DNA from: Erythrobacter donghaensis
GTDB lineage: Bacteria > Pseudomonadota > Alphaproteobacteria > Sphingomonadales > Sphingomonadaceae
Reading direction: 5' to 3'
Length of the DNA stretch: 64,000 bases
Assembly: GCF_002155425.1 (NCBI RefSeq)
Contig: NZ_MUYG01000010.1
Coordinates: 434,001-498,000, forward strand
A program made the translations under genes and the position numbers. The notes beneath the pieces were generated by a model that ran no database searches, was not told where the DNA came from, and saw nothing but the letters and a program-made list of their open reading frames with translations. This document shows positions 5,486 through 8,573 of the stretch, one piece after another (the stretch's first letter is position 1; each line of letters opens with the position of its first letter).

Positions 5486-6238
5486 ATGGCAGGCGAAATC
5501 CTCGACAACAAGGGACGCGGCGAGGCTGGCTGGGACTGGCCCGCGATCCACCCCGAAGGCCGCAAGTTCGGGCTGATCGCGGCGGCGGTGGGCCTGTTCT
5601 TCCTCTGGCCGGTGGGCTGGGGTCTGATCGGCTGGCCGGTGCTGCTGCTGAGCGCGGGGATCTTTGCCTTCTTCCGCGATCCCGAACGCGTGGTGCCGCA
5701 AAGCGAGAACGCGATCATTTCGCCCGCCGATGGCTTGGTTACGCTGATCACCGAGGCCGCGCCGCCGCTGGAATTGCAGATCGACGACGGATCGGGACTT
5801 GCCGGGCTGGCGGCGGGGCCGGTCACGCGGGTGTCGATCTTCATGAGCGTGTTCGATGTCCACATCAACCGCACGCCGGTGGGGGGCACGGTGCGGCGGG
5901 TGGTCTATGTGCCGGGCCGCTTCATGAACGCCGATCTCGACAAGGCGAGCGAGGAAAACGAGCGCCAGCATATCCTGATCGAGCGCAGCGACGGGCTGAA
6001 GCTGGGCTTCACCCAGATTGCCGGGCTGGTGGCGCGGAGGATCGTGCCTTTCGTGAAGCCCGGTGATATCGTCGCCAAGGGACAGCGCGTCGGCCTGATC
6101 CGCTTCGGAAGCCGGGTCGATGTCTATCTGCCGGCGGGGACCGATCCCAAGGTGATGATCGGCCAGACCGTGATTGCAGGCGAGACGGTGATTGCCGAAA
6201 TCGGCCAGCGTGGATTGATTGAAGGTATTGCCCAATGA
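5486..6238 (+). CDS. psd: phosphatidylserine decarboxylase
   Basis: Converts phosphatidylserine to phosphatidylethanolamine at the inner membrane. The 250-residue protein has two N-terminal hydrophobic segments (residues 27-63) and the family motifs FFRDPER, SPADG (Asp82) and VHINR (His126). The pyruvoyl-forming self-cleavage site is Gly208-Ser209 in RFGSR; processing should give a large beta chain and a C-terminal alpha chain of about 42 residues. This is the short form of the enzyme common in alphaproteobacteria. It sits directly upstream of pssA, so the two successive steps are made from one transcript. Confidence 0.95.
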
Positions 6239-6248
6239 GCCGCCACGC

Positions 6249-7148
6249 ATGAGCCGTCCGCCCCGCAAGCGCGGCGCGCGCGCGATCCCCGGTGCGCGGT
6301 TCCTGACCGCACGGCTTGGCCCCAAGGCGGCCGAGGACGAGGATGACGAAGGCCCGATCAAGGATCCGCGCGCCGGCGGGCTGACCTTGCGGGCGATGCT
6401 GCCCAACGCGATCACCGCTGCCGCGCTGTGTTCGGGCCTTACCGGCATCCGCTTTGCCACTGAAGGGCAATGGGCCTTCGCCATCGGACTAGTGGTTCTC
6501 GCTGGCGTGCTCGACGGGATCGACGGGCGTGTTGCGCGGTTGCTCAACGCACAATCGCGCTTCGGTGCCGAGCTCGATAGCCTCGCCGACTCGATCTCTT
6601 TCGGAGTTGCGCCCGCGCTGATCCTGTTCATGTGGTCATTGCAGGACTGGCCGCGCTTCGGCTGGTTCGCCGCGCTGGCCTTCGCGATTTGCTGCGCGCT
6701 GCGCCTCGCAAGGTTCAATGCGCGGATCGACATGGACGATCAGCCGCACAAGTCTGCCGGGTTCCTGACCGGCGTTCCGGCTCCCGTCGGTGCGGGGCTG
6801 GCCTTCACGCCGTTCTACCTGTGGCACGAGACCGGCATCACGCTGTTTCGCGATCCGGTGCTGATGACCGGGTGGCTGACGGTGATCGCGATCCTGATGA
6901 TTTCCAACATGGCGACACTCAGCTGGGCTTCGCTGCGCCCGCGCCGTTCGATCCGGCTGCCGCTGATTGCGTTTACCGGCCTCGCCTTTGCCGCCCTGCT
7001 GCTGGAGCCGTGGTGGACGCTGGCGGCGATCTGCATCGCCTATCTGGCGCTGATGCCTTACGGGCTCGTCAAATATGGCGCGATCAAGCGGCGGCGCGGG
7101 CTGGAAGCGGCGCCATCGCCAGACGTGCCGGGCGACGCAGCGGCGTAA
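6249..7148 (+). CDS. pssA: CDP-diacylglycerol--serine O-phosphatidyltransferase
   Basis: Makes phosphatidylserine from CDP-diacylglycerol and serine, the step before Psd. The CDP-alcohol phosphotransferase signature D-G-x2-A-R-x8-G-x3-D-x3-D is present as DGRVARLLNAQSRFGAELD followed by SLAD. About eight hydrophobic helices follow a basic, disordered N-terminus of some 40 residues. I use ATG 6249, 10 nt after the psd stop; an in-frame ATG at 6219 would overlap psd by 20 nt. No strong ribosome site is visible, so translation may be coupled to psd. The last 65 nt overlap, tail to tail, the small membrane protein on the other strand. Confidence 0.93.
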   Translation: MSRPPRKRGARAIPGARFLTARLGPKAAEDEDDEGPIKDPRAGGLTLRAMLPNAITAAALCSGLTGIRFATEGQWAFAIGLVVLAGVLDGIDGRVARLLNAQSRFGAELDSLADSISFGVAPALILFMWSLQDWPRFGWFAALAFAICCALRLARFNARIDMDDQPHKSAGFLTGVPAPVGAGLAFTPFYLWHETGITLFRDPVLMTGWLTVIAILMISNMATLSWASLRPRRSIRLPLIAFTGLAFAALLLEPWWTLAAICIAYLALMPYGLVKYGAIKRRRGLEAAPSPDVPGDAAA

Positions 7149-7359
7149 CCGCCGCCGCCGCCGGCCGCGCCGGGCGCAGCCGCAGCTCTGCCGCTGCCGC
7201 CTGCGCCACAAGCCCGGCTCGCAGCGCCTCGCCTTCCGCCATCAGCCGCCGATAGGCGACGCGCGCCTGCATGAGGCTGTCCGTAATCACGGCCAGAGAA
7301 ACGAGTCCGGAGAAGGTGAACAGCGCAACAAGCGCGAAAGTGAGGGCAGGCGAGAGCAT
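7084..7359 (-). CDS. small single-pass membrane protein under SOS-type control
   Basis: I do not recognise the family. The 91-residue protein has one hydrophobic helix at residues about 4-28 ([20 protein letters not shown]), then an amphipathic helix ([21 protein letters not shown]) and a tail rich in Ala, Arg and Pro. The start at 7359 is favoured by CAGGAG 8 nt upstream; the open frame continues to 7422, but that would place coding sequence across the promoter. Upstream are a perfect TTGACA -35 and two GTTC-N7-GTTC LexA boxes. Size, topology and SOS control recall the Caulobacter division inhibitors SidA/DidA, but no sequence similarity is claimed and the function is unproven. Confidence 0.75.
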
Positions 7360-7380
7360 ATCGGTTACTCCTGACGAACT

Positions 7381-7430
7381 GTTCGATCTTTGTTCCGCTG
7401 CTTTGTTCTCCACCTGTTCCAATCTGTCAA
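7381..7430 (-). promoter_or_regulatory. two alphaproteobacterial LexA (SOS) boxes over a sigma70 promoter
   Basis: GTTC-N7-GTTC occurs at 7381-7395 and again at 7405-7419, matching the direct-repeat LexA site known from Caulobacter, Rhizobium and Rhodobacter. On the minus strand a perfect TTGACA (-35) lies at 7430-7425. With a 17-nt spacer, a weak -10 (AACAAA) lies at 7407-7402. One box sits in the spacer and over part of the -10; the other covers the transcript start. This is standard repressor geometry for the small gene starting at 7359. The boxes lie over 220 nt from rpsB, so control of rpsB is unlikely. Confidence 0.78.
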
Positions 7431-7649
7431 GCGGCTTGTTGTCGTCGCGGAAGCAATTTTCTGCCGCAGCAAGACATCGGGGCTGGATTTTGTTCCGGAG
7501 GGCCGCTAGAGGCGCGCACGCTCCGGGCGAGGCATGAGGCCTTGGCGCGGGGCAAATTCACATGGAAGGCGCTCATACCGGTGCCGCTCGCGGGAACTCC
7601 GCAAGCGCGGTTCCAGCCTTCCAGAGGAACAACCGGAAAGGAATTACCT

Positions 7650-8444
7650 ATGGCGGCACCCGTCGTCACCATGCAGCAATTGATCGAGGCCGGCGCTCAC
7701 TTCGGCCACCAGACCCACCGCTGGAACCCGCGCATGAAGCCGTACATCTTCGGCGCGCGCAACGGTGTTCACATCATCGACCTGTCGCAGACCGTGCCGC
7801 TGTTCGCGCGTGCGCTGGACTTCGTCGAATCGACCGTGCGTTCGGGCGGCAAGGTGCTGTTCGTCGGCACCAAGCGTCAGGCGCAGGAGCCGATCGCGGA
7901 AGCTGCGCGCATGTCGGGCCAGCACTTCGTCAACCACCGCTGGCTGGGCGGCATGCTCACCAACTGGAAGACCATCTCGGGTTCGATCCGCCGTCTCAAG
8001 AGCCTCGAAGAGCAGCTCTCGGGTGACACCAGCGGTCTGACCAAGAAGGAAGTTCTCAACCTCACCCGTGAGCGCGAGAAGCTCGAGATGTCGCTCGGCG
8101 GCATCCGCGACATGGGCGGCATTCCGGACGTGATGTTCGTGATCGACGCCAACAAGGAAGACCTGGCGATCAAGGAAGCCAATGTGCTTGGCATTCCGGT
8201 GATCGGCATCCTCGACACCAACGTCGACCCCAACGGCATCGCCTTTCCGGTTCCGGGCAACGACGATGCGAGCCGCGCTGTGCGCCTCTATTGCCAGGCG
8301 ATCGGCGAAGCCGCGCTGGCGGGCAAGGGCAAGTTCCAGCAGGACGTGTCGAGCGATTTCGGCGCGATGGCTGAGCCCCCGGCTGAAGCCCCCGCTCCGG
8401 TCGAAGCCGCTGACGAACCGGCTGCGGAAGACGCCGAAGCCTGA
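7650..8444 (+). CDS. rpsB: 30S ribosomal protein S2
   Basis: Ribosomal protein of the small subunit, 264 residues. The N-terminus [20 protein letters not shown] and the internal GTKRQAQ and [11 protein letters not shown] motifs are diagnostic. ATG 7650 is preceded by AAAGGAA at good spacing; an in-frame ATG at 7542 would add 36 residues with no similarity to S2. The C-terminus carries an Ala/Glu/Pro-rich extension after residue 235, common in alphaproteobacteria. It is followed by tsf, the usual pair. Confidence 0.98.
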
Positions 8445-8452
8445 TCTTTTGC

Positions 8453-8485
8453 ACGGGTGATGGGCGCCGGTCGTCAATCACCCGT
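8453..8485 (+). other. intercistronic hairpin between rpsB and tsf
   Basis: ACGGGTGAT (8453-8461) and ATCACCCGT (8477-8485) form a perfect 9-bp stem around a 15-nt loop. No U-tract follows, so it is more likely a processing or attenuation element than a full terminator. It could allow S2 and EF-Ts to be made in different amounts. Confidence 0.5.
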
Positions 8486-8573
8486 CACATTCCCCCTCTA
8501 GCGCGCCCGGCATTGCCCCCCTTCCCGGGACGGCAGGGCCGGGCGCCCGAACACACACGAAAAGGAATTTCTC

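Follow-up and report, generated by a model that had tools for sequence, protein, structure and literature searches.

The window analyzed here, a 64,000-nt stretch of Erythrobacter donghaensis DNA, carries a 91-codon gene on the minus strand that encodes a predicted small membrane protein. The gene lies between two plus-strand frames, one of which (6219 to 7148) we take to be pssA, encoding phosphatidylserine synthase, while the other (7650 to 8444) is presumably rpsB, encoding ribosomal protein S2. It converges on the former and diverges from the latter. The features of the locus are as follows.

7084..7359, minus strand: small membrane-protein gene, 91 codons plus stop (ATG at 7359, stop at 7084-7086)
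7425..7430, minus strand: TTGACA, −35 element, seen in the sequence; ends 5 bases ahead of box 1
7405..7419, minus strand: LexA-type box 1, between the −35 element and the ATG, GAACAGGTGGAGAAC (motif scan)
7402..7407, minus strand: possible −10 element, AACAAA, seen in the sequence; 17-bp spacer, weak match
7381..7395, minus strand: LexA-type box 2, GAACAAAGATCGAAC, 24 bp from box 1, start to start
7368..7372, minus strand: ribosome-binding site AGGAG, seen in the sequence; 8 bases 5' of the ATG
7084..7148, no strand assigned: convergent overlap of 65 bp between the small gene and the 3' end of pssA (frame comparison)
6219..7148, plus strand: pssA frame, convergent neighbor (open reading frame)
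7650..8444, plus strand: rpsB frame, divergent neighbor (open reading frame)

An earlier reading of the window from its letters (the sequence-only reading) had placed two GTTC-N7-GTTC boxes at 7381-7395 and 7405-7419, between a TTGACA and the start of the small gene. A motif scan bore out these coordinates, with the TTGACA at 7430-7425 on the minus strand and the ATG at 7359. The site form had also been equated with the alphaproteobacterial LexA operator, and it does match the consensus GTTCN7GTTC (PMC12700426, in excerpt). An alternative longer TTG start lies at 7422, just ahead of the boxes, and is not preferred over the ATG at 7359. Between 6800 and 7700, a strict sigma-70 scan returned zero promoters, the −10 AACAAA is poor, and no terminator-like sites were found.

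LexA-type boxes in the genome and across the family

A lone box is weak evidence, and it is conservation that carries the case. The window contains three GTTC-N7-GTTC sites where 1.53 are expected, a count reached by 18 of 100 shuffles, and the genome holds 64 copies of the bare motif compared with 70 of a reversed control. The bare motif count was therefore ruled out as evidence for LexA control. Among the 64 genome sites, the small-gene promoter is the only spot with two boxes less than 100 bp apart. The arrangement TTGAC-N6-box occurs once in the window and in 0/100 shuffles. With 5 to 7 intervening bases, three such arrangements exist in the genome, namely, before the small gene, before uvrA (with the same TTGAC-N6-box layout as the small gene), and at one further site.

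Frames were inspected near 19 of the 64 sites, chosen by eye, and 10 frames were submitted to NCBIfam. Eight of the 10 match repair or SOS-type genes, namely, RecA, LexA, UvrA, a PcrA/UvrD-type helicase, Ada, RmuC, and two radical-SAM repair proteins; the UvrA, helicase, Ada, and RmuC frames score below the curated NCBIfam cutoffs, and the UvrA and helicase frames are truncated at the edge of the stretch. Two frames taken to be ImuA-like and MmcB-like gave no NCBIfam match at 1e-20. Within this genome, lexA, recA, and uvrA are all preceded by GTTC-N7-GTTC. A second LexA/S24-like repressor frame, recognized by eye, stands behind a GAACATTTCAGGAAC box in the same genome (L038, C3:699491-699505).

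A protein search matched the small protein in 28/61 genomes, the window's own included, all of them in the window's genus. At all 28 of these protein-selected loci, the gene order is psd, pssA, small gene, rpsB, with at least one box between the small gene and rpsB (28/28); tsf follows rpsB except at L012 and L013, where the sequence ends first. Because these loci had been selected by protein match, DNA upstream of rpsB was also taken regardless of the small protein. The resulting 118 family loci comprise the 28 protein-selected loci, 83 of 86 family loci found by rpsB, and 7 same-genus loci, the latter being those with rpsB found among 9 same-genus genomes without a protein match.

The sequence-only reading had named conservation of the boxes with the gene as its check, and conservation is what we observed: at 96 of the 101 family loci with pssA at most 1.2 kb from rpsB, a box lies within 420 bp before rpsB, compared with 1.06 expected from dinucleotide shuffles and 1 in a reversed control. 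Without the 28 protein-selected loci, the count is 68/73. Extending the search to 700 bp raises it to 98/101 by adding L062 and L087, and three loci (3/101; L079, L095, and L159) have no exact box even in 700 bp. All 7 same-genus genomes missed by the protein search carry a box. The other-family control consisted of 30 of the 59 genomes with an rpsB match; none has a box before rpsB, a result that says little about the small gene, as none of the 30 has a PssA match there. After pssA in other families, a box was found in 0/4 cases.

In a scan by PssA alignment, the best 80 of at least 589 named loci were considered; these overlap the unnamed set and are thus not independent of it. Named loci include Qipengyuania, Erythrobacter, Porphyrobacter, Altererythrobacter, Novosphingobium, Sphingopyxis, Blastomonas, Sphingomonas, and others, and it is on these names that the term "sphingomonads" is based here. 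Of these 80, a box is present at 77, a convergent hydrophobic ORF at 78, and both at 76, and every one with rpsB adjacent has a box (72/72). The loci without a box are L281, L298, and L272, which has only 245 bp after pssA; those without a hydrophobic ORF are L281 and L288.

The promoter layout is conserved along with the box. TTGAC stands 5 to 7 bases before the box at 85 of the 96 family loci with a box, and about six bases before it at all but one (L093) of the 55 loci displayed. Box-to-box spacing is 24 to 25 bp in 34/57 cases and 33 to 35 bp in 18/57. An A follows the first GAAC in 138/153 boxes, as it does in the box before this genome's recA, GAACAAGTAGGGAAC.

Two further site patterns were observed at these promoters. 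At nine loci of the window's genus (L014, L015, L017, L019, L024, L025, L026, L068, and L171), a third box lies 33 to 34 bp further out, upstream of the TTGAC. Outside that genus, 10 of 60 family loci (L069, L075, L079, L089, L094, L099, L107, L111, L119, and L167; 0.04 expected) have a perfect DnaA box, TTATCCACA, upstream of the small gene, compared with 0/41 loci within it. The DnaA box falls 42 to 75 nt before the small-gene ATG at 9 of its 10 loci, and DnaA is a possible second control of the small gene.

Coding status and predicted topology of the small protein

For codons outside the pssA overlap, pN was below pS in 44/44 pairs with more than 60% identity (means of 0.19 versus 0.52; the pairs share ancestry). 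Judged by this substitution pattern, the small frame is a real coding sequence under purifying selection. A minus-strand ORF of 50 to 140 codons with a strong N-terminal hydrophobic stretch is present at 100/101 loci versus 4/505 shuffles. This shuffle control was used instead of a plus-strand control, which 69/101 loci also pass; the plus-strand passes probably arise from the scanned stretch including the end of pssA, itself encoding a membrane protein. Overall, a small membrane ORF lies beside pssA in 108/118 family genomes (100/101 plus 8/17), in most cases with a LexA-type promoter. The gene is not universal in the family: among the 17 genomes lacking pssA near rpsB, there are 9 in which no candidate next to pssA was accepted as a small membrane gene.

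The small proteins range from 52 to 97 residues, with a long cationic tail averaging a net charge of +6.6. One transmembrane helix is predicted by both hydropathy and AlphaFold2. The description of the 91-residue product as a single-helix protein agrees with the AlphaFold2 model (56 sequences), which gives one helix from residue 4 to 61; confidence is high up to about residue 50 and low in the tail. At 101/101 loci, there is no K or R before the hydrophobic stretch and a mean of 2.6 in the 15 residues after it. By the positive-inside rule, the N terminus is predicted to lie outside and the C terminus, with the cationic tail, inside. This topology prediction is soft, because the stretch is preceded by just 2.5 residues or so and the choice of start favored sites near it.

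The protein had further been said to belong to no recognizable family, and this held in profile searches: none of 7 small proteins has a Pfam or NCBIfam match over the cutoff, and the window protein has no Pfam match up to an E value of 1. Matches below the cutoff were obtained for 2/7 proteins with Pfam and likewise 2/7 with NCBIfam. Among 37 small proteins, Pfam gave one weak match (Bestrophin-like, 4.6e-4; cutoffs not displayed), while two PHROGs families were each matched by 1/56, the best value (0.00068) being that of the window protein. All of these weak matches were dismissed as composition. A PDB sequence search yielded zero matches, and the closest named protein, from Porphyrobacter sp. 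YT40 (89% identity), is annotated "hypothetical protein."

A class-wide search with profile A1 matched 13/289 genomes at an E value of ≤0.01, of which 2 are in the window's genus (strong), 1 is in the family (0.00275), and 10 lie outside the family (3e-4 to 7e-3). None of the outside-family matches was accepted as a relative, and no box was found at the four of their loci that were scanned (L215, L216, L217, and L227). Profile A1 misses at least one family genome with the ORF (G061), and distant relatives may escape it.

The small gene overlaps the end of pssA by at least 4 bp at 97/101 loci, in one phase at 96 of the 97. Of the loci without overlap, three end 6 to 12 bp short of pssA and L095 ends 425 bp short. 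At the 97 overlapping loci, including that of the window (7084-7148), the 3' end of the small gene is complementary to that of the PssA frame, which favors RAAA-like protein endings. Most of the small proteins (87/100) end in AA. A role of this ending as a degradation tag was considered and rejected, with AA in 88/97 overlapping genes versus 0/4 nonoverlapping genes; the ending is a by-product, because the tail is antisense of a basic stretch in PssA.

Target of the boxes and candidate roles

In 17 family genomes, the DNA taken before rpsB does not contain pssA, and the DNA after pssA was examined there. A box precedes rpsB in only one of the 17, L115, which lacks a good ORF; in another, L154, just 26 bp of DNA is available ahead of rpsB. 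After pssA, a box together with a small membrane ORF is present in 7/17. Five of these are informative (L189, L195, L200, L201, and L202); in them, pssA and rpsB are at least 3.3 kb apart or on separate contigs, and the 1.5 kb preceding rpsB contains no box. Less informative are L188, where just 1.5 kb separates pssA and rpsB, and L192, which pairs with the contig end (L154, 26 bp). Beyond the box, L200 to L202 have another gene, which by eye resembles an acyl-CoA ligase; the box might be common to both genes. The small gene is present in L193 with a box in the opposite orientation, while L204 has a box and the small gene was not found. No box follows pssA in L190, L191, L194, or L203, and an 81-residue hydrophobic frame in L190 was not accepted. 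In genus g31 (L196 to L199), a different SOS-type gene, rmuC-like by eye and with its own GTTC-N7-GTTC box, occupies the small gene's spot after pssA. Because box and small gene stay together where rpsB lies elsewhere without a box, the boxes probably act on the small gene and not on rpsB.

Taken together, the comparative sequence data support an undescribed small membrane-type protein behind conserved LexA-type boxes across one large bacterial family. Judged from its promoter, the gene is very likely under LexA control, which would mean repression by LexA and induction by DNA damage. The main reading of its function, to which we assign a probability of roughly 0.45, is that of a LexA-controlled single-helix inner-membrane protein that pauses division via the septal machinery (FtsW/FtsI/FtsN). 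LexA would occupy box 1, across the promoter spacer where polymerase binds, and also box 2, which lies about two helical turns on and would tighten repression. Upon DNA damage, RecA-stimulated cleavage would remove LexA from the boxes and turn the small gene on. The product would insert in the inner membrane with its N terminus outside and its cationic tail inside, and would act inside the membrane on the septal wall machinery, such that division is paused during DNA repair. Given LexA control, division arrest has nearly an even chance of being correct. It is proposed by analogy with small membrane proteins, induced by DNA damage, that block late division in Caulobacter, Bacillus, Staphylococcus, and Mycobacterium (PMC13396833 and PMC4211646); none of the sequence features of the small protein points to the divisome specifically.

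Under the same control, the protein could instead act on the envelope, with its cationic tail altering phospholipid or envelope synthesis or membrane potential under damage. The predicted N-out/C-in orientation and the average tail charge fit such a role, as does the position of the gene next to pssA, a pairing that persists where rpsB lies elsewhere. However, this neighborhood may simply reflect the history of the locus, the small gene sits on the opposite strand and forms no operon with pssA, and the composition of the tail is partly imposed by the overlap. We regard an envelope role as possible but unlikely.

More doubtful is an antisense mechanism, in which the SOS transcript extends into pssA on the opposite strand and reduces phosphatidylserine synthase after damage, with the RNA mattering as much as the protein. 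The overlap at 97/101 loci fits this proposal, and with 6800-7700 yielding no terminator-like site, transcription may run on into pssA. However, the constraint on codons beyond the overlap shows that the protein itself is selected, and the genes that end short of pssA (by 6 to 12 bp at 3/101 loci and by 425 bp at L095) also speak against it.

We consider it improbable that the product is a TisB-like, SOS-induced membrane toxin that depolarizes cells and favors dormancy. Small size, one hydrophobic helix, and an SOS-type promoter would fit, but the gene keeps a fixed core position in most of the genomes examined instead of being patchily present, and its products have 52 to 97 residues with a long tail. 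An Rfam scan of 6200-8500 for an antisense regulatory RNA, as expected of a TisB-like type I toxin, gave no match, although RNAs outside Rfam would escape it. Quite improbable, too, is a combined scheme in which one LexA-controlled transcript yields both an inverted-topology division inhibitor and an antisense RNA into pssA, such that DNA damage brakes septation and membrane-lipid synthesis together in a family-wide checkpoint located at the pssA-rpsB junction. Finally, although the boxes lie about 245 to 270 bp upstream of rpsB, it is highly improbable that they serve rpsB and that the small frame is incidental, given the scarcity of boxes before rpsB where pssA is not nearby (1/17) and in other families (0/30), the joint retention of box and small gene where rpsB is elsewhere, and the selection acting on the frame.

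Comparison with known systems

In the open-access literature on sphingomonad SOS work and on such small proteins, we found no title or abstract describing this gene, nor any explanation of the way in which DNA damage halts division in sphingomonads. RNA-seq of Sphingopyxis granuli TFA has lexA and recA rising sixfold in anoxia (PMC6472365, in excerpt). The small gene is a directly testable candidate for the missing sphingomonad division checkpoint.

SulA of Escherichia coli is SOS induced and has the task postulated here for the small protein. Its target is FtsZ, and it is not known as a membrane protein. The SulA profile (PF03846) exceeded its cutoff in neither this genome (0/1) nor the family (0/99 genomes), where one match fell just under it (22.4 versus 23.1 bits); thus, the SulA slot looks vacant in the family.

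SidA of Caulobacter crescentus is a protein of 29 residues. It is described as a LexA-controlled small transmembrane division inhibitor, within a regulon whose consensus is GTTCN7GTTC (PMC4211646 and PMC12700426). The small protein shares with SidA an alphaproteobacterial host, the GTTC-N7-GTTC operator, and a predicted small transmembrane product; it differs in having 91 residues with a cationic tail and in being encoded beside pssA. The likeness to SidA and DidA put forward in the sequence-only reading stands as an analogy. DidA, also from Caulobacter, has 71 residues and one predicted transmembrane helix, is induced by DriD independently of SOS, and is encoded by a frame that overlaps the end of another annotated frame (PMC4211646, in excerpt). 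Small size, one helix, and a frame overlapping the end of a neighbor are common to DidA and the small protein, whereas the gene studied here has LexA-type boxes and DidA is SOS independent.

Further parallels to the main reading, that of a LexA-controlled protein that pauses division, are YneA (Bacillus), SosA (Staphylococcus; see also PMC6851548), and ChiZ (Mycobacterium). These are small membrane proteins, induced by DNA damage, whose action falls late in division, with YneA binding FtsW through its helix and SosA and ChiZ doing so by low-confidence models only (PMC13396833). Like the members of this functional class, to which SidA also belongs, the protein studied here is small, is predicted to have one transmembrane helix, and has an SOS operator. 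Unlike YneA and ChiZ, the small protein has no LysM domain (no Pfam match up to an E value of 1), and its C terminus is predicted to face inward instead of outward, the reverse of YneA, which carries its LysM domain outside. If the main reading is true, the small gene would lend one more independent case to the view that small membrane proteins directed at late division evolve repeatedly under LexA.
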